Of a stretch of DNA of 64,000 nucleotides, positions 3,441 to 46,796 are shown piece after piece; within the stretch, counting starts at the first letter, position 1; the number at the start of each line of letters is the position of its first letter. The position numbers and the translations under genes are program-made. Source of the DNA: Flavobacterium zepuense (GTDB lineage: Bacteria; Bacteroidota; Bacteroidia; Flavobacteriales; Flavobacteriaceae); NCBI RefSeq assembly GCF_007097145.1, contig NZ_VJVZ01000003.1, positions 310,001 to 374,000 on the forward strand, read 5' to 3'. The notes under the pieces were generated by a model. The model was not told where the DNA came from and did not search any database. It saw only the letters and a program-made list of their open reading frames with translations.

Positions 3441-3987
3441 ATATGTACCTCATGCTTTTTAAATGCTGCAACTTAGCATCATCTGCCACATCTGCAAATT
3501 GTTTTAGTATCACCCGCAGTTTCGGATTGATGTAGGTTTCGCAAAACGGCCTTTGGGTATCGCTGTAATAATAGTTAAGCTGCTCTTCCTTGCTCAGGGT
3601 AAATTCGCTAAACGGCAGCACTTTTGTAATGATGGCATCTTCAAAATTGTTTTGCAGTTCCGCTATAGCGGATTCACCTAAAGCGATATCCTCATCATTA
3701 AAAGTGTAGATCGCCGACCTGTACTTACCCCGCATGCTGTGTAATGAAGTGGCGCTATGGGTATACAAATGCACCGCAATAAGGGTTTGCAGGTTTATTG
3801 TTTGGGTATCATATTCAATTACAACACCTTCAGAAAAAGAATCATTCTCTCCACTACCGGCTATCCACCCCTGCGCTACCGATACTACACCTTTAAGCGA
3901 GGCAAAAACCGCCTCGGTACACCAGTGGCACCCGCCGCCAAAACCTGCTTTTTTAATTGTTGTGTCCATCACTTTTACGGGTTGCAA
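3439..3987 (-). CDS. msrA: Peptide methionine sulfoxide reductase MsrA
   Basis: A 182-residue enzyme reducing methionine-S-sulfoxide in proteins. The active-site motif GGGCHWCTEAVF is at 17-28, with the catalytic Cys20 (GCFW in most MsrA; here GCHW) and a second Cys23. The downstream landmarks YTHSAT, KYRSAIY and the C-terminal QRPFCETYINPKLRV are typical. Met7 is an alternative start. There is no export signal, so it is cytoplasmic. It lies 11 bp downstream of the sensor kinase gene, so it is probably the third gene of the regulator-kinase-msrA transcript. The last codon lies in the arm of an inverted-repeat element. Confidence 0.93.
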   Translation of the reverse strand: MQPVKVMDTTIKKAGFGGGCHWCTEAVFASLKGVVSVAQGWIAGSGENDSFSEGVVIEYDTQTINLQTLIAVHLYTHSATSLHSMRGKYRSAIYTFNDEDIALGESAIAELQNNFEDAIITKVLPFSEFTLSKEEQLNYYYSDTQRPFCETYINPKLRVILKQFADVADDAKLQHLKSMRYI

Positions 3988-3998
3988 AAACTGTGCTA

Positions 3999-5318
3999 CT
4001 AAGTAATAAGGCTGATTATAAAGGTAGTGGTACCCTCGGTGGTGGTGTAGCTAAGGTATCCCCCGTGGGCTTCTACAATATTTTTAGAGAGCGTTAACCC
4101 AATGCCTGCCCCCTCTTTGCGCGTGGTAAAAAAAGGCAGGAATATCTTGTCTTCAATTTCTTTTTCTATGCCGTTGCCGGTATCGGTAATGTTGATGAAC
4201 AGTCGGTTGGTCTTAACCTCAGCGCTTACGTTTATATGTTTGTGCTCTTTATCCTTTAACGCATAAATGCTGTTAATAAAGAGGTTAATAAGCACCTGCT
4301 CCATTTGTTGGGGGTCGGCCATGAGCCAGCGCTTTATCGCTACCGTATTCGTGACTGTTACATTTGCTTTTTTAAACAGCGGAGCCATAATGTTAAGGGC
4401 ACTATCTAACAGTGCGGTAAGCTCAACTTTTTGCTTATCGGGCGATGGCAGCATGGCCAGCTTTCGGTAATTATCTATAAAGTTTTGCAGGTGGTCGCTG
4501 CGGTTAATCATGGTAGATACGCTTTCGCGGATGTCATCAAGGTCGTCTTTAGAGAATGCCTCCTGCTGCACGATATCCTCCAGGTTTTGCGCCAGCGAGC
4601 GTATGGGCGTAATGGAGTTCATAAGCTCGTGCGATATTACCTTCATAAGGTTTATCCAGGCATCTTTTTCTTTCTTCTCTATTACTTTTTGTATACTGTC
4701 TAACAAAACAATATAGTATTCGCGGTTGTAGGTTTTGGTTTTAGAAGCCTGTAATATAAACGTTTGGGTATCCTGCCCGTTAATGCTTATTTGTGCCGAT
4801 GTTTTAAGGTCGTCAAAATTGCGGCGCTCTATAACCTCACACAACGATGGCAGGTGCTTTTTTAAATACACCCATTTAGAAACCTTAGGCGTTTGAAAAT
4901 GATCAGAGAAATAATCGTTCATTAAAAAAATGTCCCAGTCGGCTTCCTGCTTTTCCAGGATAAGTACACCTGTCTCTATATTGTTTAAGATGGCACGGTA
5001 CACCAGGTCTTTAGATACCTGCTCGTCCTGCCTTACCTTTAAATGGTCGTACAGTTTAAACAGGCTTTTATAATTATCAAACGAGCTGTGTTTGGTAAAA
5101 TCGGCCGAGAAATCGTTGTTTAATATCGCGCTGATGGTTTTATCATAAAACAAAAAGGTGTTGCGCACAAAATAGAATAACTCCACCAAAAGCAGCACAA
5201 ACAATAACAGGCTAAACGCAGTAGTGTAGTACAAACCCTTTTGGTACAGCAAAAATCCCCCTCCCACGGCAAGGATAATAAGCACTAAACGAATAAAAAG
5301 CTGCTGGTATAACTTCAT
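3999..5318 (-). CDS. Membrane sensor histidine kinase (NtrY-like)
   Basis: I place the start at the ATG at 5316-5318 (439 residues), 4 bp after the regulator stop codon; a longer reading frame overlapping the regulator lacks support. Two closely spaced membrane helices (about 8-25 and 33-52) leave almost no periplasmic domain. A PAS-like region (about 105-210) follows, then the H-box VISHELMNSITP with His230, an N-box (NLFINSIYALKD) and G-boxes (DTGNGIEKE, GAGIGLTLSKNIVEAHGG). It probably phosphorylates the adjacent sigma54-type regulator and senses a membrane or cytoplasmic signal. Confidence 0.93.
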   Translation of the reverse strand: MKLYQQLFIRLVLIILAVGGGFLLYQKGLYYTTAFSLLLFVLLLVELFYFVRNTFLFYDKTISAILNNDFSADFTKHSSFDNYKSLFKLYDHLKVRQDEQVSKDLVYRAILNNIETGVLILEKQEADWDIFLMNDYFSDHFQTPKVSKWVYLKKHLPSLCEVIERRNFDDLKTSAQISINGQDTQTFILQASKTKTYNREYYIVLLDSIQKVIEKKEKDAWINLMKVISHELMNSITPIRSLAQNLEDIVQQEAFSKDDLDDIRESVSTMINRSDHLQNFIDNYRKLAMLPSPDKQKVELTALLDSALNIMAPLFKKANVTVTNTVAIKRWLMADPQQMEQVLINLFINSIYALKDKEHKHINVSAEVKTNRLFINITDTGNGIEKEIEDKIFLPFFTTRKEGAGIGLTLSKNIVEAHGGYLSYTTTEGTTTFIISLIT

Positions 5319-38396: not shown

Positions 38397-39125
38397 CTAT
38401 TTAAAACCAATAGGAATATTTTGCACATAACCCAATAAAGCAGTAAAAGACAGTACAGTAGAAAGCCCGTATCCTGCCACGAACACAATAAGCATTACCA
38501 ACACTTCTAAACCTAAATACCTGTAATTGAGCTTATTTATATAAGCTGGAGACGTTGCCGAAAGGTTTTGGGTAATGCGGTTAAGATCGGCCAGCTTTTC
38601 CTGAAAGCTGCCTTTATGGCTGTTCCTAAACGCATTAAGGCTGTCAATACTATCGTTAATATCCTCAGGTATAGCCTCTTCCAGATGCTCTCGCATGCGC
38701 CGCGCCAGTACGGGCGACTTACCATTGGTTGATATGGCTATCTTTAAACTGCCTTTGTTTACAATAGAACCCAGGTAAAAATCGCACAATTGGGGCTGGT
38801 CGGCGGCATTTACAAGGATGTTACGGCTGTTTGCGCAGGTTTTTATGGCTGTATTAAGCTCTTTATCGTTAGTGGCGGCAATTACAAAATCGGCATTGAT
38901 CACATCACTTTCTTCAAAGTTTTTTGCCTGATATTTCACTTTTGGATGTTGAGTTACCACCTTTTTTAGCTCCGGTAAAATAGAAATCGACACGATTGTG
39001 ATACTCACATCCGGATTTTGCCGCAAAAGTGTCTGCGTTTTTTCGAGCCCAACGTTACCACCACCCACAATTAAGAATCTGGCGGTCTCAGTTTTTAAAA
39101 AAACGGGGAATAATGTGTTATTCAT
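38397..39125 (-). CDS. Siroheme synthase dehydrogenase/ferrochelatase (Met8/CysG-B type) with C-terminal membrane helix
   Basis: A 242-residue protein that should oxidise precorrin-2 to sirohydrochlorin and insert iron, giving siroheme for sulfite reductase. The NAD-binding motif is VGGGNVGLEKT (20-30), the probable catalytic Asp109 is in LVNAADQPQLCDF, and NGKSPVLARRMREHLEEAIPED (134-155) is the family signature. Unusually, residues about 204-226 form a strong membrane helix (LGLEVLVMLIVFVAGYGL) not present in CysG or Met8. It is the last gene of the siroheme/sulfite reductase cluster, 90 bp after cysI, and that gap carries two palindromic operators. Confidence 0.88.
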   Translation of the reverse strand: MNNTLFPVFLKTETARFLIVGGGNVGLEKTQTLLRQNPDVSITIVSISILPELKKVVTQHPKVKYQAKNFEESDVINADFVIAATNDKELNTAIKTCANSRNILVNAADQPQLCDFYLGSIVNKGSLKIAISTNGKSPVLARRMREHLEEAIPEDINDSIDSLNAFRNSHKGSFQEKLADLNRITQNLSATSPAYINKLNYRYLGLEVLVMLIVFVAGYGLSTVLSFTALLGYVQNIPIGFK

Positions 39126-39193: not shown

Positions 39194-39217
39194 AAAATAT
39201 ACCAACCGGTATATTTT
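39194..39217. promoter_or_regulatory. TetR-like operator palindrome 2
   Basis: AAAATATACC-AACC-GGTATATTTT, a perfect 10-bp inverted repeat that runs into the cysI stop codon (39216-39218). Centre-to-centre distance to palindrome 1 is 49 bp. Confidence 0.6.
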
Positions 39218-40865
39218 AGTTGTTCTGTACAAAAAATTTACGGTTACCAAAGTCGCCCAGTGTTTCGCCGGGGGTACGTTCGTTTACATATAAGTTAAGG
39301 AGGTTATCTACTTCCGATAAAATTTCTTCTTCATTTAATTTTTCCTTATAAACCTTGTTAAGCCTTTCGCCAAAACGATCGCCACCTAACATAAAATTAT
39401 ACTGGCCGGGCGCAGTACCCACAAAACCAAGCTCGGCTACATAAGGGCGGCCACAACCGTTGGGGCAGCCCGTCATGCGTATTACGATCTCCTCATTTTC
39501 AAGGTTGTATTTCTCTAAATACGGCTCAATTTTGGTAACCAGTTCCGGCAGGTAGCGTTGCGCCTCTGCCAAAGCAAGCGGACACGTAGGCAACGCCACA
39601 CAGGCCATCGAGTTTTTACGCAGGGCACTATCCTTATCCTCAATGCTGTATTTGGAAATAAGTGATTGTATAACAGGCTTATTTTCAGCGTTTATCTCCC
39701 CTAAAATAAGGTTTTGGTTGCCTGTAAATATAAAGTTAGAAGCATTTAGCTTTGCAACCTCATACAGCAGTTGCTTTTGGTAAGGCTTTATCACGCCATT
39801 TTCTACAAACAGGGTGTAATACCACTTGCCCTCATAGTTTTGCTGCCAGCCGTAACGGTCGGTGCGCTCTGTAAATTCATAAGGCTGTTCAGGCAACAGT
39901 GTAAAGCCAATGCGGCGTTCCAGCTCATCTCTAAAGCCTTCAACCGTCATCTTATCAATGGTGTACTTTAGGCGCGAAAATTTCCTGTCGCTCCTGTTGC
40001 CAAAATCCCGCTGTATGGTAGCTACTTCATAAACAGCCTTTAAGGTTTTCTCCTCGGTATCGGTAAAGCCTAATATGGTACCCAGGCGCGAATAGGTATC
40101 GGGGTTGCCATGCGTGGTAGCCATGCCCCCACCCACTACGATGTTAAAACCCTTAAGTTCATTGTTTTTTATTATGGCAATAAGGCCCAGGTCGTTAGCA
40201 AAAACATCAACGTCATTACTGGGCGGTATGGCAACGGCTATCTTAAACTTGCGTGGCAGGTAGCGGTCTTCATACAGCGGGTCGGCCTCCTGCGAGCGTT
40301 CATATATCTTTTCGCCATCAATCCAAATTTCGTAATACGACTGCGTTTTAGGCAGCAACAGTGCCGATATCTTATCGGCATACCCATACACCTGCTGGTG
40401 CAGCGGCGATACCTGCGGGTGCGCACTTGTAATCACGTTACGGTTAACATCGCCACAGGCGGCTATAGAGTCCAGTTCGGCAAGGTTAAATGCCTGTATG
40501 GTAGGGCGCAACTGGTGCTTTAACAGGCCGTGCAGCTGCAGTGTTTGGCGGGTAGTAATTTTTAGGGTACCTGTACCATATTGCTCTGATATGCTGTGGG
40601 CTGCCAGCCATTGCGGTGCGGTAATAGTACCACCGGGAATGCGAAGCCTAAGCATAAAACTGTACAGCTTATCCAGCTTTTTTTCGGCACGCTCAGCACG
40701 GCGGTCGCGATCATCCTGAACGTACATACCGTGAAATTTAACCAACACCTCATCATCGGCACGCAGGCCGCCGGTATGGTTATCGTTAAGGCTCTCTTTT
40801 AGCGTACCACGAAGGCCATCGCTGTTGGTTTTTATAGTTTCTACGTGCGATAATTTCTCACTCAT
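39216..40865 (-). CDS. cysI: Assimilatory sulfite reductase hemoprotein subunit
   Basis: A 549-residue siroheme and [4Fe-4S] enzyme that reduces sulfite to sulfide with six electrons. Two homologous halves are visible: the parachute region GIxPGGxxT-type (RLRIPGGTITAPQW), TTRQTLQLHG (first siroheme-binding loop), and the cluster ligands Cys422-X5-Cys428 (ACVALPTCPLAL) and Cys467-X3-Cys471 (TGCPNGCGRPY), matching the E. coli CysI spacing. Dissimilatory or nitrite reductase types are less likely because the flavoprotein partner is encoded next door, 67 bp upstream in the operon. Normal length. Confidence 0.95.
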   Translation of the reverse strand: MSEKLSHVETIKTNSDGLRGTLKESLNDNHTGGLRADDEVLVKFHGMYVQDDRDRRAERAEKKLDKLYSFMLRLRIPGGTITAPQWLAAHSISEQYGTGTLKITTRQTLQLHGLLKHQLRPTIQAFNLAELDSIAACGDVNRNVITSAHPQVSPLHQQVYGYADKISALLLPKTQSYYEIWIDGEKIYERSQEADPLYEDRYLPRKFKIAVAIPPSNDVDVFANDLGLIAIIKNNELKGFNIVVGGGMATTHGNPDTYSRLGTILGFTDTEEKTLKAVYEVATIQRDFGNRSDRKFSRLKYTIDKMTVEGFRDELERRIGFTLLPEQPYEFTERTDRYGWQQNYEGKWYYTLFVENGVIKPYQKQLLYEVAKLNASNFIFTGNQNLILGEINAENKPVIQSLISKYSIEDKDSALRKNSMACVALPTCPLALAEAQRYLPELVTKIEPYLEKYNLENEEIVIRMTGCPNGCGRPYVAELGFVGTAPGQYNFMLGGDRFGERLNKVYKEKLNEEEILSEVDNLLNLYVNERTPGETLGDFGNRKFFVQNN

Positions 40866-40932: not shown

Positions 40933-42630
40933 CTAATACACATCCTTTTGGTACCTGCCCTGCTCCTCAAGTTCATTCAGCACCTCCCGGGCGGCATCAG
41001 GGCTAAGGCCACGGGCTGCGGCAATTACCTCTATTATGGTATTCTCTACATCGGTGCCCATAGGGTGTCTTTGCCCGCAGATGTAAAGGCTTGCACCGTT
41101 TTGTAGCCACTCGTTAAACTGGCCGGCATTCTCCCTAATACGGTCCTGAACGTAAATTTTATCCTGTTGGTCGCGCGAGAACGCAACATCTAACTTAGTA
41201 AGCACCGCAGTAGTTATCCATTCCTGAATCTCGGTTTGGTAATAAAAGTCGAGCACAAAATACTGTTCGCCAAAAAACAGCCAGTTCCTGCCCCCTGCCC
41301 CGGTGGCGTCGCGGTACGACAGGAAACTCCTAAAGGGCGCTATACCTGTACCGGGGCCTATCATTATAATATCGGTATCATTTGTCGGGAGGCGGAAATG
41401 CGTGTTTTTATGAATGTAGAAGTTGATAGCCGTACCAATGGGGTAATGTGCCAAAAAGTGCGATGCGAGGCCGGTTTTTTGGGTATTATTCGCTGTAAAC
41501 GTGTCTAACGTAACGGTTAGGTGCACCTGCCCGTCGTGCGCTTCCGCAGAAGACGAAATGGAGTACAGGCGCGGTGCAATAGGCAGTAATACCCCAATAA
41601 GGTCATCGATAGAAACCTGTGCAGGAATTACGGCTACGGCAAGGATGTCAAGCAGGTCGGCCTTTTCTGCCTCATAAGTAACCAGTAACAATTCTGCAAC
41701 CTGGCCAATGCTGCGTTTGCTTAGTCCTTTTATATTGCGTTCTGCCAGCCAATTGGATACCGACTGCGATTTATCTTTAATTGAGATATGCCTGCTGCCC
41801 TCTTCCTTAAAGTAAGCCAGCACCTGGTTTACAGTATGTGCATCGTTCCTTGCAAAAATGCCAAGTGCATCTCCGGGTTCGTAATCTACCGTATCATCGG
41901 CAGTAATTTCAATATGGTAGGTTTCCTTGTTAGAACCCCTGTCGTTCAATACTACCTTATGGGTTATGACCCCGCTGTAATTTTTCTTATTTGAAGCCGG
42001 TGCCGAAGGCTTTGCAACAGCTACTCCAGTTGATGGATTTACAGCGTTTGCCAAATGATCGTGCAGGCTTTTTTCCCAATGATTTACGGGTTCGGCATAA
42101 TCAACATCGGCTTTAACCAAGGGCAAAATGCGTTGTGCGCCCAGTTGGGCAAGGGCTTCATCAAGCAACTCACCGGCATAGCAAAACAAGGGGTATGAGG
42201 TATCGCCCAGGCCTAATACAGCATACTTAAGGTGGCTTAGGCTGGGCTTAGATGCCTGTAACTTCTCATAAAAGGCTACGGCATTTTGAGGGAACTCCCC
42301 CTCGCCCTGCGTGCTCATTACAAACAGGGCATGGGTTTCTTTCTCAAGCTTAGCAATATCGTACTGAAAAACATCGGCAGCCTTAGCCTGTACCTTGTTC
42401 TTTTTAAAGTTTGCCAGCAACTGCGATGCTACTTTTTTAGAATTACCAGTCTCGGTACCATACAATATGGTTGGCTTTACTGCGATGGCAGCAGGCGTAA
42501 CCGATATGTTTATAGGTACATTAGCAGCATCAAGATAGCCTGCAAGGTAGCCTTTGGCCCATATTATCTCTTCTTTAGAGGCATTGTGCACCAGTTGCTG
42601 CAACAGTTGTAGTTTGTTTTCAGATAGCAT
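40933..42630 (-). CDS. cysJ: Sulfite reductase flavoprotein subunit
   Basis: A 565-residue NADPH-dependent diflavin reductase feeding electrons to CysI. I choose the ATG at 42628-42630 (MLSENKLQLL), which overlaps the cobA end by 11 bp and fits the CysJ N-terminus; a longer frame starting 22 codons upstream lies within cobA and is unlikely. Order: flavodoxin domain (about 52-200, FMN loop LYGTETGNSKK at 56-66), FAD domain with RLYSISSS, and an NADPH domain with GPGTGIAPFRSFLSYRD, RDQQDKIYVQDRI and the C-terminal RYQKDVY, a typical CysJ ending. Confidence 0.95.
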   Translation of the reverse strand: MLSENKLQLLQQLVHNASKEEIIWAKGYLAGYLDAANVPINISVTPAAIAVKPTILYGTETGNSKKVASQLLANFKKNKVQAKAADVFQYDIAKLEKETHALFVMSTQGEGEFPQNAVAFYEKLQASKPSLSHLKYAVLGLGDTSYPLFCYAGELLDEALAQLGAQRILPLVKADVDYAEPVNHWEKSLHDHLANAVNPSTGVAVAKPSAPASNKKNYSGVITHKVVLNDRGSNKETYHIEITADDTVDYEPGDALGIFARNDAHTVNQVLAYFKEEGSRHISIKDKSQSVSNWLAERNIKGLSKRSIGQVAELLLVTYEAEKADLLDILAVAVIPAQVSIDDLIGVLLPIAPRLYSISSSAEAHDGQVHLTVTLDTFTANNTQKTGLASHFLAHYPIGTAINFYIHKNTHFRLPTNDTDIIMIGPGTGIAPFRSFLSYRDATGAGGRNWLFFGEQYFVLDFYYQTEIQEWITTAVLTKLDVAFSRDQQDKIYVQDRIRENAGQFNEWLQNGASLYICGQRHPMGTDVENTIIEVIAAARGLSPDAAREVLNELEEQGRYQKDVY

Positions 42631-43435
42631 TTTGGTAGGTAGATTTATGGTTATCAAAATAAGAAGCCGTAGTATCGCCCTCCTTAAACCAGGCATACTG
42701 CTTGTGCAGGTTTACCACATTGCCTATAATTATAAGGGTGGGCACGTACTCAAACCCCGGCAGGCCTTTATCTCGCAACTCCCTGAAGGTAAATACACTC
42801 GATTTTTGGTTGGGCGTTGTAGCCTGTTGTATTACCGCAATGCCCTTACTATCGTCTATACCAAAAGCCACCAGCTTTTGCGCCAGGGTAACCAGCTTTT
42901 GCCCGCTCATGTAGTAAACAAGCGTATCATCGGTTTCTGCCCAGTCGCGCCACTGGTTTACGCTAACCGATTTGAGGTCGAACAAGGTTAAAAACCGTAC
43001 CCCGCGCGAATGCTCGCGGGCGGTTAATGGTATCGCAGCATAGGCCGCAGCCCCAAATGCCGCCGATATTCCCGGTATAATTTCATAAGGTATGTTGCCG
43101 GCTTTTAGCACTTCCAGCTCATCTAAAACATTAGAGAACAATGATGCATCGCCACCCTTTAACCGCAGCACCAGCTTACCCTGCACGGCCAGCTCTGTCA
43201 TTAAAGCATTGATGTCTTCCTGGGGGGTATGTATGCCGCGCGAGCATTGCTTGCCTACATAAATTACCTGAGCATCAGGGCGGGCATTATCACTAATCAG
43301 CACGGGCGATACGAGCCTGTCGGTCAGGATAACATCGGCAGTTTGTATGTACCTCAGCGCTTTAACGCTTATCAGGTCGGGGTCGCCGGGCCCGGCGCCG
43401 GCAAGTATTACTTTTCCTTTAAAATCTATATTCAT
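42620..43435 (-). CDS. cobA: Uroporphyrinogen-III C-methyltransferase
   Basis: A 271-residue SAM-dependent methyltransferase converting uroporphyrinogen III to precorrin-2, the entry to siroheme. Motifs: GAGPGDPDL (13-21), TDRLVSP (38-44), RLKGGDASLF (91-100), EIIPGISAAFG and the C-terminal GFEYVPTLIIIGNVV. It is a stand-alone SUMT; the dehydrogenase/ferrochelatase activity is in the separate met8-like gene. No cobalamin gene is nearby, so siroheme for sulfite reductase is the evident purpose. It is the first structural gene after the tandem cysteine leader region, 33 nt after the second terminator. Confidence 0.94.
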   Translation of the reverse strand: MNIDFKGKVILAGAGPGDPDLISVKALRYIQTADVILTDRLVSPVLISDNARPDAQVIYVGKQCSRGIHTPQEDINALMTELAVQGKLVLRLKGGDASLFSNVLDELEVLKAGNIPYEIIPGISAAFGAAAYAAIPLTAREHSRGVRFLTLFDLKSVSVNQWRDWAETDDTLVYYMSGQKLVTLAQKLVAFGIDDSKGIAVIQQATTPNQKSSVFTFRELRDKGLPGFEYVPTLIIIGNVVNLHKQYAWFKEGDTTASYFDNHKSTYQNAI

Positions 43436-43462
43436 TTTGTGTGTATTTTAAATTTTGTTGAA

Positions 43463-43497
43463 TAAAAAAAGCCCCCTTGAGTTAACAAGAGGGCTTT
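43463..43497 (-). terminator. Attenuator terminator 2 before cobA
   Basis: Minus-strand RNA: AAAGCCCUCUUG-uuaacu-CAAGGGGGCUUU followed by UUUUU. The only imperfect position is a U-G wobble in this orientation (it would be C-A on the other strand), which supports minus-strand function. It starts 22 nt after leader ORF 2 and sits 33 nt before the cobA ATG. Confidence 0.88.
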
Positions 43498-43518
43498 AGG
43501 CATGTATAAGTGAGTTAG

Positions 43519-43629
43519 TTAGTAACAGCAGCATACAGGGCGTCCTCTTGCAAAATTTTGCAAACAACAAGCCATGCACATGCATAATGCTGCCGATGTT
43601 ATTGTAAATATGTTTGTTACTGTGTTCAT
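43519..43629 (-). CDS. Cysteine-rich leader peptide 2 (36 residues)
   Basis: A short ORF, ATG at 43627-43629, TAA at 43519-43521, with 7 Cys among 36 residues: Cys16, 18, 21, 22 (segment LCMCMACC, 15-22) and 33-35 (segment RPVCCCY at the very end). It is followed directly by terminator 2. Codons 27-29 contain CAAGAGG (plus-strand 43544-43550), perfectly complementary to CCUCUUG in the 5' arm of that terminator and thus a candidate antiterminator. I interpret it as a translated attenuator leader sensing Cys-tRNA supply for the sulfite reductase operon. A metal-sensing nascent peptide is an alternative. Confidence 0.75.
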   Translation of the reverse strand: MNTVTNIFTITSAALCMCMACCLQNFARGRPVCCCY

Positions 43630-43657
43630 TGTTAATTTTTTAGAAACGTTGTAAAAC

Positions 43658-43686
43658 AAAAAACTCCCCGGGGGTTACCGGGGAGT
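43658..43686 (-). terminator. Attenuator terminator 1
   Basis: Minus-strand RNA: ACUCCCCGG / CCGGGGAGU (perfect 9-bp GC-rich stem, 6-nt loop) followed by UUUUUG. It lies 34 nt after leader ORF 1 and 28 nt before leader ORF 2, that is, far upstream of any structural gene, which only makes sense as a regulated terminator or as the end of a tiny transcript. Confidence 0.88.
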
Positions 43687-43720
43687 CTTCGCTTAAAATA
43701 TATATTATAATATCTACAAT

Positions 43721-43792
43721 TTATACCACAGCAAATGTACTCCCCTTGGTTGGGCAGCAGCATACGGTACATGATGTAGATTGAAATTGCAT
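43721..43792 (-). CDS. Cysteine-rich leader peptide 1 (23 residues)
   Basis: A short ORF, ATG at 43790-43792, TAA at 43721-43723, with Cys8 and the triplet Cys11-12-13 (segment SCTVCCCPTKGS, 7-18). The GGGGAGT formed by the last base of codon 16 and codons 17-18 (plus-strand 43739-43745) is perfectly complementary to ACUCCCC of terminator 1. The same layout as leader 2 (Cys codons, then an antiterminator-like segment, then terminator) supports function. It begins about 20 nt downstream of the predicted transcription start. Confidence 0.72.
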   Translation of the reverse strand: MQFQSTSCTVCCCPTKGSTFAVV

Positions 43793-43814
43793 GTTTTTAT
43801 CTGTTGAGATACTG

Positions 43815-43822
43815 CAAACATA
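43815..43822 (-). promoter_or_regulatory. -7 element TATGTTTG for the cys leader/operon
   Basis: A perfect TAnnTTTG box on the minus strand, 22 nt upstream of the leader 1 ATG. No convincing TTG -33 box was seen, which may indicate an activator. The remaining gap to 44187 is AT-rich and shows no other gene. Confidence 0.6.
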
Positions 43823-44187
43823 GTGAGTTTTTTAATTGGATATACATTCTACCTAAAAAAATTATAGATAAACTTAAAAAAGGGTAAATCTCTCCCGCAC
43901 CCGCATGTTACCAACTTGATTTAGTCTACAAATTTAAAAACAACGATATATCGTGAAAAATTTAAAAACTAAATTATTTAAAATGTTAAAAATCAAACAG
44001 TTACAAAACAGGCTTTATTTTGGTTATTACATGAACCGGGAAAAACAAGCGGTTGTGCTTTCTTGTTCCAGTTCAATGTATAGAGTTTTAGGATATCACA
44101 ACTTTGTACTATAAAAATTAGACAAAAGAAATTACAAGTATCAAATAAAAATCAAATAATCATTATTAATCACAAAATTTAGTTATC

Positions 44188-44871
44188 ATGAAAAATCTTT
44201 TCTTAACAGCAACACTACTACTTACAACAGTAACGGCATTTGCTCAAAAACCATCGCCATCACTTTTAACACCTACCAACCACACCCTGATCCTTATCGA
44301 TTACGAAGGGCAAATGACATTCCCAACTGCCAGCATACCAATAGATCAGCTGCGTAACAACACGGCTCTTGTAGCAGGTGCTTCTAAAATCTTTAACGTA
44401 GCAACTATTGTAACTACTGTAGCCGAGAAATCCTTCAGTGGCCCGGTATTCCCTGAGGTTCAGGAGCTTTACCCAACCTCTACCTACATAGACAGGACTA
44501 CTATGAATACCTGGGAAGATGCCGCTGCCTACAAAGCTATTGTTGCCGAAGGCAAGAAAAAAATTGTGTTAGGTGGTTTATGGACAGGCGTTTGCATTGT
44601 TGGACCGGCACTATCGGCAATTAGTGAAGGGTATGATGTATACTTTATTAGCGATGCTTGTGGTGATGTTAGCAAAGAAGCCCATGAAATGGCTATAGCC
44701 CGTATGATACAGGCCGGTGCACACCCAATGACCTCTTTACAGTACCTTTTGGAGCTACAACGCGACTGGGCTCGTAAAGAAACCTACAAGCCTGTAAACG
44801 ACCTTGTTGTAAAATACGGCGGCGCTTATGGTATTGGTGTTCAGTACGCAAGGGAAATGGTTAAACATTAA
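44188..44871 (+). CDS. Secreted isochorismatase-like cysteine hydrolase
   Basis: A 227-residue protein with a signal peptide (MKNLFLTATLLLTTVTAFAQ, cut after residue 20). The mature domain has the isochorismatase fold: TLILIDYEGQM (Asp38), a Lys near 81, GLWTGVCIVGPAL with the nucleophile Cys136, and DVYFISDACGDVS. The closest form is the YcaC-like hydrolase group of unknown substrate. Export to the periplasm is unusual for this fold. The 107-bp gap to the amidohydrolase and common orientation suggest one operon with the DoxX and porin genes. Confidence 0.85.
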   Translation: MKNLFLTATLLLTTVTAFAQKPSPSLLTPTNHTLILIDYEGQMTFPTASIPIDQLRNNTALVAGASKIFNVATIVTTVAEKSFSGPVFPEVQELYPTSTYIDRTTMNTWEDAAAYKAIVAEGKKKIVLGGLWTGVCIVGPALSAISEGYDVYFISDACGDVSKEAHEMAIARMIQAGAHPMTSLQYLLELQRDWARKETYKPVNDLVVKYGGAYGIGVQYAREMVKH

Positions 44872-44978
44872 TATTCGTTAGCCATGTTAATTTAGTTTTT
44901 AGTCCGGTGAAAGGTTGGCAAAAAACAGCCAACTTTTCACTTTCGGACTTTGAGTTTACCAACAAAATCCCCTCAATT

Positions 44979-46796
44979 ATGAAAATTCCAATTCACAACT
45001 CAATACTTACATTTTTGCTTTTATTGTGTACCGGTAGTTTTGCGCAATCTAAAGTTGCACCTACCCTGATTGTTCACAATGCAAAAATCCATACGCTCGA
45101 TGAAAATAACACCGTAACCGAAGCCATGGCAGTTGCCAATGGCAAAGTGATAAAAACAGGCAAGAGCAGCGATATCCTTAAACTAAAGGCAAAAAACACC
45201 CAGGTAATAGATGCCAAAGGCAAAGTGGTGGTACCGGGATTGTTTGATTCGCACATGCACATCATCCGTGGTGGGCGTTTTTTTAATACCGAACTCAGGT
45301 GGGATGGCGTGCGCTCACTAAAAAGGGCGCTGGCCATGCTAAAGGAGCAGGCACAAAGAACCCCAAAAGGCCAGTGGGTGCGCGTTGTAGGCGGCTGGAA
45401 CGCCTACCAGTTTGAAGAAAAGAGGCTCCCAACACTGGAGGAGATCAACGAGGCCACAGGCGATGTACCTGCTTTTGTTTTACACCTTTACGGCCATGCT
45501 TACCTTAACAAAGCAGGTATTAAAGCACTTAATATAGATGCCAATACCCCTAACCCTGCAGGCGGCCTTGTAGAGAGGGACATAAACGGCAACCCTACCG
45601 GGCTACTGGTGGCAGAGCCTAACGCTTTTATATTGTACTCTACCCTCTCTAAACTGCCGGAGCTTACCCTTGAAGAGAAAGTAAACTCTACAAAACAGTT
45701 CATGACAGAAATGAACCGCCTGGGTGTTACCGCCATTATGGATGCCGGTGGTGGTTTCCAAAATTTCCCTGATGATTACGGCGTTACCAATAACCTGTGC
45801 CAAAACAACGAGCTTACCATACGCATGCCTTACTATCTTTTTGCCCAGAAGGCAGGCAGTGAACTGGCCGATTACACCCGCTGGATAAGCAGTGTAGAAG
45901 TTGGCGCGGGTTGCGATGTACCTCAGGATGGTACTAAGAAATTCGGCAAGATGCCTAAAATGGAATACCACGTACAGGGCGGCGGCGAAAACCTTGTGAT
46001 GAGTGCCGGTGACTTTGAAAATTTTGATGAGCCAAGGCCGGAACTTAGCCCCGCTATGGAAGGTCAGCTTAAACAGGTATTATCGTTACTAATAAAAAAC
46101 AGGTGGCCTTTTAGGATACACGCCACGTATAATGAAAGCGTTAGCCGCTTTTTAAATGTGATTGAAGATATAAATAAAGAAACCCCGCTTAACGGCCTGC
46201 TTTGGTTTTTTGACCATTCCGAAACAGTTTCTGTTGAAAATCTTCAACGGATAAAAGCCCTTAACGGCGGTATTGCCATACAACACAGGATGGCCTACCA
46301 GGGCGAAGCTTTTATAAAACGCTACGGTAAAACGGCGGCTGCAAATACGGTTCCGCTTAAAAAGATCATGGATATGGGCATACGTGTGGGCATGGGTACC
46401 GATGGTACACGTGTGGCAAGCTACAACCCATGGGTGGGCCTGTACTGGCTTACTACCGGTAAAACTTTGGGAGGCTTAAAATATATGAATGACGAGAATA
46501 TTGCCGATCGTACTACTGCCCTTAAGCTCTTTACTTACGGCAGTGCACAGCTTATTAACCTGGAAAAAGACAGGGGGATGCTTAAACCGGATTATCTGGC
46601 TGATTTTATTATCCTGTCAGACGATTACTTTTCCACTGCCGAAGAGAACATCCTAAAGATAGAATCGAAACTTACAGTAGTTAACGGCAAGGTGGTATAT
46701 GCCGATGATGAGTACCGTGCTTTTGCTAAACCAACACCAAAGGCCCTGCCGGAATGGAGCCCTGTTAACTACTTTGGCGGCTATCAAAAAAACTAA
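44979..46796 (+). CDS. Secreted amidohydrolase (YtcJ-like, metal-dependent)
   Basis: A 605-residue amidohydrolase-3 family enzyme. I place the start at the ATG at 44979-44981, which begins a clean signal peptide (MKIPIHNSILTFLLLLCTGS, cut after FAQ near residue 23); a longer frame upstream adds 24 polar residues. Metal ligands: His92 and His94 in GLFDSHMH, a later His in PFRIHATYNE and FFDHSE, and Asp in GMGTDGTRV. The N-terminal composite beta-sandwich (NAKIHTLDENNTVTEAMAV) is typical. It should hydrolyse a cyclic amide or related substrate in the periplasm. The DoxX gene starts 2 bp downstream. Confidence 0.88.
   Translation: MKIPIHNSILTFLLLLCTGSFAQSKVAPTLIVHNAKIHTLDENNTVTEAMAVANGKVIKTGKSSDILKLKAKNTQVIDAKGKVVVPGLFDSHMHIIRGGRFFNTELRWDGVRSLKRALAMLKEQAQRTPKGQWVRVVGGWNAYQFEEKRLPTLEEINEATGDVPAFVLHLYGHAYLNKAGIKALNIDANTPNPAGGLVERDINGNPTGLLVAEPNAFILYSTLSKLPELTLEEKVNSTKQFMTEMNRLGVTAIMDAGGGFQNFPDDYGVTNNLCQNNELTIRMPYYLFAQKAGSELADYTRWISSVEVGAGCDVPQDGTKKFGKMPKMEYHVQGGGENLVMSAGDFENFDEPRPELSPAMEGQLKQVLSLLIKNRWPFRIHATYNESVSRFLNVIEDINKETPLNGLLWFFDHSETVSVENLQRIKALNGGIAIQHRMAYQGEAFIKRYGKTAAANTVPLKKIMDMGIRVGMGTDGTRVASYNPWVGLYWLTTGKTLGGLKYMNDENIADRTTALKLFTYGSAQLINLEKDRGMLKPDYLADFIILSDDYFSTAEENILKIESKLTVVNGKVVYADDEYRAFAKPTPKALPEWSPVNYFGGYQKN

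Follow-up and report, generated by a model that had tools for sequence, protein, structure and literature searches.

Tandem cysteine-rich leader peptides with intrinsic terminators as probable transcription attenuators of the cobA-cysJ-cysI-met8 operon in Flavobacterium zepuense

Analysis of a 64,000 nucleotide stretch of the F. zepuense genome (the whole of which is called the window) indicated that the cobA-cysJ-cysI-met8 operon is very probably controlled by two ribosome-mediated transcription attenuators, placed in series on one transcript. The evidence in hand for this attenuation model comprises the sequence parts, their conservation, cognate pairing, geometry, predicted folds, the position of a promoter motif and the genes of the operon; we infer that the leaders are translated, that ribosomes stall on them, that transcripts terminate in vivo, which molecule is the signal and what two units in series bring about.

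The region 43463-43822 was read directly on the minus strand, on which all window features described here lie. It contains, from 5' to 3': the promoter-like element TATGTTTG, leader ORF 1, terminator 1, leader ORF 2 and terminator 2, with cobA-cysJ-cysI-met8 located 3' of terminator 2. The -7-like element TATGTTTG (43815..43822) has the form TAnnTTTG, which we take to be the Bacteroidota-type promoter consensus. The ATG of leader 1 is 22 nt from this motif, a spacing that would suggest a short 5' UTR.

Leader ORF 1 (MQFQSTSCTVCCCPTKGSTFAVV; 43721..43792), which has counterparts in relatives, comprises 23 codons with Cys at position 8 and positions 11-13, and has no internal Met. It includes the segment GGGGAGT (43739..43745), complementary to the 5' arm of terminator 1 with a duplex energy of -14.5 kcal/mol. 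Terminator 1 (43659..43690) has a 9-bp stem, ACTCCCCGG-TAACCC-CCGGGGAGT, followed by a T-run. Leader ORF 2 (MNTVTNIFTITSAALCMCMACCLQNFARGRPVCCCY; 43519..43629) comprises 36 codons with seven Cys and two internal Met, and includes the segment CAAGAGG (43544..43550), complementary to the 5' arm of terminator 2 (duplex -10.6 kcal/mol). Terminator 2 (43468..43497) reads AGCCCTCTTG-TTAACT-CAAGGGGGCT followed by a T-run. Both terminators were identified by terminator prediction as well as by direct reading.

The first gene downstream, cobA (42620..43435), codes for a uroporphyrinogen-III C-methyltransferase (NCBIfam NF004790 and TIGR01469, above cut-off). It is followed by cysJ (40933..42696), the sulfite reductase flavoprotein subunit, for which TIGR01931 was the best model (3.3e-159, below the equivalog cut-off) and whose coordinates are those of the longest ORF, so that the true start may be further in; by cysI (39216..40865), the sulfite reductase hemoprotein subunit (NF010029, above cut-off); and by met8/cysG N-terminal domain (38397..39125), a siroheme synthase N-terminal protein of the precorrin-2 dehydrogenase type (TIGR01470, above cut-off). 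Direct reading and the NCBIfam models thus bore out the whole layout given by the original prediction: a promoter-like element, two Cys-rich leaders, two terminators, and then cobA-cysJ-cysI-met8. That prediction had also described each segment as a copy of the 3' arm of its terminator, fully complementary to the 5' arm. CAAGAGG does pair fully with the 5' arm of terminator 2, but it is one base off the 3' arm (CAAGGGG).

Attenuators of the trp, his, thr and ilv type consist of a short ORF with regulatory codons, a protector, an antiterminator and an intrinsic terminator ahead of the matching biosynthetic operon; in thr and ilv the regulatory codons are mixed. The two units of the window have the same part order ahead of a matching operon. 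The sequence architecture that defines the trp/his type is complete: a cluster of end-product codons in a short ORF, an intrinsic terminator between this ORF and the first gene, an antiterminator just past the regulatory codons, a predicted protector, and downstream genes that make or import the sensed amino acid. The differences are the use of Cys (and Met) codons, the presence of two complete units in series and the promoter motif, presumably of Bacteroidota type. This would be ribosome-mediated attenuation in a new form, the principle itself being already known.

The frequency of such arrangements in the same genome was estimated from 752.5 kb in 36 stretches, the window included. A loose scan for a Cys-rich ORF with a terminator gave 17 matches, most of which were judged to be out-of-frame coding noise. 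When little overlap with long ORFs and an upstream TAnnTTTG were demanded, leader 1 and a leader preceding metNIQ (see below) were left; leader 2, before which no separate promoter motif is present, is absent from this filtered set. The leader-plus-terminator RNAs folded better than their dinucleotide shuffles, with z values of -4.78 for leader 1 and -2.6 for leader 2. The observed arrangement is far above chance.

Relatives were collected through cobA and through cysH. The CobA search yielded 22 loci of 66-86% identity: 20 from Flavobacterium/Flavobacteria, one from Chishuiella and one from a MAG labelled Limnohabitans. Two Cys-rich leaders and two terminators precede cobA in L031, L034 and L037. 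In the other 18 Flavobacterium-type CobA loci, cobA follows cysH-cysD-cysN-cysE-cysK and the leaders, where present, are located before cysH; the operon families were checked by NCBIfam in one of these loci, L033, with cysE below its equivalog cut-off. The cysH search (E<=1e-50) matched 231 of 398 genomes of the genus, among them 23 loci (L141-L163) with a first type of cysH, 62-75% identical to the query. Loci with identical leader sequences, nine of these 23, were counted once, and 32 distinct cysH-led loci were obtained, 18 from the CobA search and 14 from the cysH search.

Absence of the ORFs or terminators from relatives had been named beforehand as an outcome that would speak against the original prediction. 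Leaders and terminators were found to be kept, as pairs, in 4/4 cobA-led loci (the window included) and in 25/32 cysH-led loci, counts that are not independent given the relatedness of the leaders. The 25 include L035, L044, L153 and L160, in which the second leader or both were found by eye after the scan had missed them; the open frames of the leaders found by eye were then checked, and several of their terminators were identified by eye only. Four of the 32 loci carry a single leader (L036, L038, L071 and L145), and no leader was found in two, L051 and L163. Homology to the window's leader 2 is recognisable in the second leaders of the relatives (for example MNTLTTITTILASTACVMMMCCMRNFARGRLLYYLL in L040), with the shared pattern MNTxTxxT...CMxMxCC-x-R/QNFARGR.

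The remaining locus, L045, has one leader and a second unit upstream of cysH (902) whose leader frame is closed from its ATG (at about 735-755), and the Cys codons, the segment and the terminator of this unit are kept; in the near relative L049 this leader is open. The closed frame in L045 may reflect decay or a sequencing error. No leader was found by scanning up to 1.5 kb upstream of nine cysH loci from other genera of the family (L111-L113, L115-L118, L120 and L121). In Chishuiella changwenlii L050, a cysD-like gene is preceded, at 3576-3670, by a leader, MKINVLDITMCMCNSLNKEVDIVLY, together with TATATTTG and a terminator. This single MCMC leader has a weak segment (-6.9). As it occurs outside Flavobacterium, the leader system may predate the genus.

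Pairing between segments and terminators was analyzed in a set of 57 distinct leaders from 32 loci (4 cobA-led and 28 cysH-led). To obtain it from 79 scan rows, six peptides from out-of-frame ORFs were discarded, two starts that lay too far upstream were shortened and each sequence was kept once; the second leaders of L044 and L160, both leaders of L153 and L035, L050 and all metN leaders were left out. The mean duplex energy between the segment and the terminator 5' arm was -11.2 kcal/mol, compared with -6.4 in codon shuffles. Pairing was better than in codon shuffles at p<=0.05 for 45/57 leaders and at p<=0.01 for 27/57. Both window leaders were significant, neither being among the 12/57 that individually were not. 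These 12 include four of five second leaders with terminator arms that begin AAAGTCC. In all five (second leaders of L033, L046, L146, L149 and L151) no clear segment was seen (-4.9 to -7.2 kcal/mol).

The pairing also favours the cognate terminator. The own arm paired better than the mean of the other arms in 56/57 leaders, and it was among the best 25% of arms in 48/57 and among the best 10% in 19/57. With one leader taken for each of the 27 distinct arms, the own-arm mean was -11.20, compared with -8.14 (sd 0.45) when arms were permuted; none of 5000 permutations was as good. The own arm ranked first in only 5/27 representatives, and the terminator arms share a common C/T-rich theme. Segment and arm change together, within this theme.

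The segment starts 3-20 nt past a Cys codon in 54/57 leaders; the null mean was 15.0 and the maximum 29 in 2000 trials. The footprint of a stalled ribosome reaches about 12 nt past the codon on which it halts, so that the segment would be located at about the edge of a ribosome stalled on the Cys codons. In predicted folds of the ribosome-free leader the segment was paired upstream, over at least 4 nt, in 51/57 leaders, whereas shuffling gave 26.4 (at most 33 over 30 rounds), and was paired downstream in 1/57, compared with 15.1 in shuffles. The predicted upstream partner of the segment, the protector, overlaps a Cys codon in 41/57. For leader 1 of the window, RNA folding predicts a protector (1:2) fold at 43712..43781 in which the Cys codons and the antiterminator segment are paired. 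The antiterminator arrangement that had been proposed for the window is supported by the cognate pairing, by the constant spacing between Cys codons and segment and by the predicted protector.

The Cys clusters could bind a metal or be oxidised, and the peptides have some family resemblance, as would suit arrest peptides, that is, nascent Cys-rich peptides that stall the ribosome on a small molecule, a metal or a redox state. The peptide sequence, however, varies by group while the Cys/Met codons, the segment and the distance between them are kept, and the conserved NFARG residues correspond to the codons of the antiterminator segment itself; we regard arrest peptides as improbable. The same fixed position of the segment relative to the Cys codons bears on another explanation: that the region acts as a riboswitch for a metabolite or gives rise to terminated small RNAs, the ORFs being incidental. 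The leader is indeed structured and has terminators, and terminated leaders would be short RNAs. Against this, Cys/Met-cluster ORFs recur with differing RNA sequence, and a search of window positions 42000-45000 on both strands gave no Rfam family at the gathering score. The riboswitch or small RNA explanation is accordingly very improbable. The sub-threshold Rfam matches were VrrA (33.2 bits, threshold 50) and BSnc120 (24.6 bits, threshold 114), unrelated families that were taken as chance.

Leader 2 is the only one of the two window leaders with Cys codons near the stop. The original prediction had remarked that this last Cys triplet does not fit the simplest model, and we agree that it is out of place there. 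The triplet is not conserved: among 11 homologous leaders a Cys run of at least three past the segment was found in the window, L034 and L037, a single Cys in two and none in six, and most have Tyr or Leu codons at this position. The triplet had been considered as a second stall site, and a conserved role in sensing was rejected on this ground. The predicted protector fold of leader 2 extends over 43521..43621, its 3' side consisting of the terminal Cys codons (ATGCTGCTGTTAC). Pairing upstream of the first Cys codon is predicted for 14 of the bases past the segment in the window, 16 in L034 and 18 in L037; in two of the 11, L150 and L156, there are no such pairs. The terminal triplet may therefore be read as the 3' side of a protector stem.

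Folding of both alternatives, which had been suggested as a check, supported the attenuation model in part. When a ribosome was placed on the Cys cluster before synthesis of the terminator 3' arm, upstream pairing took in at least 5 bases of the 5' arm in 52/57 leaders. In the complete leader, by contrast, the terminator was the minimum-energy fold in 56/57, even with a stalled ribosome, so that antitermination must be kinetic and settled during transcription. When the ribosome was placed at the stop codon instead, again before synthesis of the 3' arm, such upstream pairing of at least 5 bases was still available to the 5' arm in 34/57. This predicted pairing is not explained by the simple model, and the off state would then rest on the protector fold and on timing.

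TAnnTTTG occurs no further than 60 nt from the ATG in 28/32 first leaders and in 0/25 second leaders; as background, it occurred in 7 of 384 stretches of 110 nt, most of them coding sequence. As the motif precedes first leaders only, both leaders are probably on one transcript.

According to the proposed mechanism, when cysteine is plentiful the ribosome would clear the Cys run and depart, and the protector fold (1:2) would hold the segment. The terminator (3:4) would then form and RNA polymerase would halt at the first or the second terminator. When charged Cys-tRNA is scarce, the ribosome would stall on the Cys/Met cluster and open the protector fold, leaving the segment free just past its footprint. 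The free segment would pair with the terminator 5' arm ahead of synthesis of the 3' arm, allowing transcription to continue. Met codons being interleaved, scarcity of Met-tRNA would possibly cause stalling too. Both terminators must be passed, and the outputs of the two units should therefore multiply; a sharper response from two units in series, as the original prediction proposed, would be possible.

Past the start codon, the 57 leaders (1441 residues) contain 15.5% Cys and 9.9% Met, whereas long ORFs of the window have 0.60% and 1.69%. Cys was the only residue for which the scan selected, and the excess of Met is thus unforced; the signal may be the supply of both Cys and Met. At least two internal Met are present in 38/57 leaders. 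In L036 and L038 (MNFTMCNMCMMMWNNPQRKPVA) the Met codons are the closest to the segment (10 nt), the last Cys being 19 nt off.

A Cys/Met-rich leader with a terminator was also found by the scan of the own genome at 16319-16402 of L195 (G000:C37:138001-158000), on the minus strand. The genes directly 3' of this leader, MAPFTNIAIMQMCCCMKLFSCCESACV, are metN-metI-metQ, with families above the NCBIfam cut-offs. MetN matches at E<=1e-110 were obtained in 26 of the 150 genus genomes searched, and a short Cys/Met leader with a terminator precedes metN in 21/26, the own genome being counted in both numbers. YY...MMCC is present in 16 of these 21 leaders; that of the own genome is not one of them. Antiterminator pairing is weaker in the metN leaders (-5.3 to -9.2). 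Taken over all leaders, the downstream genes serve sulfide, siroheme or cysteine synthesis, or methionine import.

These observations bear on a variant of the attenuation model, not exclusive of it, in which the leaders sense the sulfur amino acids jointly, or mainly methionine, with Met and Cys stall codons together being decisive. The unselected enrichment of Met, the proximity of Met codons to the segment in L036/L038, the MMCC leaders before metN in relatives and the MetN-MetI-MetQ operon speak for it. It is at odds with the lack of internal Met in window leader 1 and in 11/57 leaders overall, and with Cys being commoner than Met, albeit in a scan selected for Cys. We consider joint or mainly Met sensing a serious possibility, slightly less likely than not.

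Among known systems with two short ORFs in one leader is Salmonella mgtCBR, a virulence/Mg transport operon with another signal, which is not known to repeat an amino-acid codon run for one pathway. PMC3641672 describes these two ORFs, placed in a long leader, as thought to control transcription by attenuation, and in having two the leader resembles the present one. For the genus itself, strong clues for leader-peptide attenuation before amino-acid biosynthesis operons have been noted in Flavobacterium psychrophilum; the portion of this source that was available names no cysteine/sulfur operon or tandem units (PMC9723704). Cysteine-responsive regulation in mycobacteria is cited to Canestrari et al. 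2020 in the accessible passages of PMC9094748 and PMC13236596. The polycysteine leaders described there are likewise short Cys-run ORFs upstream of cys operons; the present units differ in having intrinsic terminators, antiterminators, Met codons and two tandem units. The mycobacterial type is further marked by a leaderless ORF at the transcript's 5' end and by a Cys run close to the stop codon; in the window, 22 nt separate the -7-like motif from the leader 1 ATG, and Cys codons close to the stop occur in leader 2 alone, most homologous leaders having no run there.

In Actinobacteria, Cys-run leaders without conserved hairpin terminators were predicted before cys operons and Rho-dependent termination was suggested, according to the part of the paper available (Seliverstov et al. 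2005, PMC1262725). Such terminator-less leaders lend some weight to Rho-dependent or translational attenuation by Cys runs, as proposed for mycobacteria, with the hairpins being secondary. Both terminators of the window, however, are of intrinsic type, have counterparts in relatives and come with matching antiterminator segments, which makes the Rho-dependent or translational reading hardly credible. The openly accessible literature that was searched gave no report of a Cys/Met attenuator, or of attenuators in tandem, in Bacteroidota; the available parts of PMC2965389, PMC4833913 and PMC2864571 held nothing bearing directly on the case.

A second type of cysH, near 58% identity, was present among the matches listed, and 19 such loci on large contigs were chosen as a sample. 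In 19/19 an Rrf2-type ORF is located within a few kb upstream, sometimes with genes between; calls were made by the N-terminus, and those in L172, L173, L174, L185 and L189 were confirmed as Rrf2 superfamily. We infer protein control of cysH by Rrf2 from this gene position. A Cys/Met leader was found in 1/19 of these loci, L174: the leader MRINNLNMVMCMCKCFSKEE and a terminator lie at 4850-4912 (reverse-complement coordinates of the locus), before the Rrf2 gene, and this attenuator may control a regulator of its own pathway. A scan match in L187 was judged by eye to be spurious.

The cysH operon of the own genome was considered as a leader carrier and ruled out, an Rrf2 gene being upstream instead. 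This operon, cysH-cysD-cysN, lies on another contig with its Rrf2 (CymR-like) gene and has no Cys leaders (L171, 6603-10252). The Rrf2 gene scored 104.3 bits against the Rrf2 superfamily (cut-off 73.3) and 66.8 bits against CymR (NCBIfam NF047409), below the cut-off of 195, and the regulator can thus be called only CymR-like. CymR-type Rrf2 regulators probably do the same regulatory job, judging by their position near cysH, but they are a protein family and not an RNA element.

Close relatives of this Rrf2 protein, with identities of at least 50%, were found in the window's genome, in G024 (the genome of L037), in G556 and in 10/10 second-type genomes. No Rrf2 relative above 34% was found in 21/22 first-type genomes, the incomplete first-type genome G656 being left out of the comparison. 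In this sample attenuators and Rrf2 regulators are therefore nearly complementary, and the window's genome is among the few with both.

These results lead to a broader proposal, for and against which we see the case as evenly balanced: that Flavobacterium has a sulfur-amino-acid attenuator regulon, comprising the cysH operon, cobA-cysJI-met8 and metNIQ, whose leaders read Cys-tRNA and Met-tRNA together. In one clade the attenuators would replace an Rrf2/CymR-like regulator; in F. zepuense and a few others the two would coexist, with Rrf2 next to the cysHDN branch, and with the siroheme/sulfite-reductase branch under the tandem attenuators. If this is true, the genus would offer a tRNA-sensing switch with natural variants: one or two units, differing Cys/Met mixtures, and presence or absence of the Rrf2 regulator. 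Ribosome-polymerase coupling in these bacteria and the contribution of a second attenuator in series would become testable. It would also be a promising case of one pathway with different controls: an RNA switch in one clade and what seems to be a protein regulator in its sisters.
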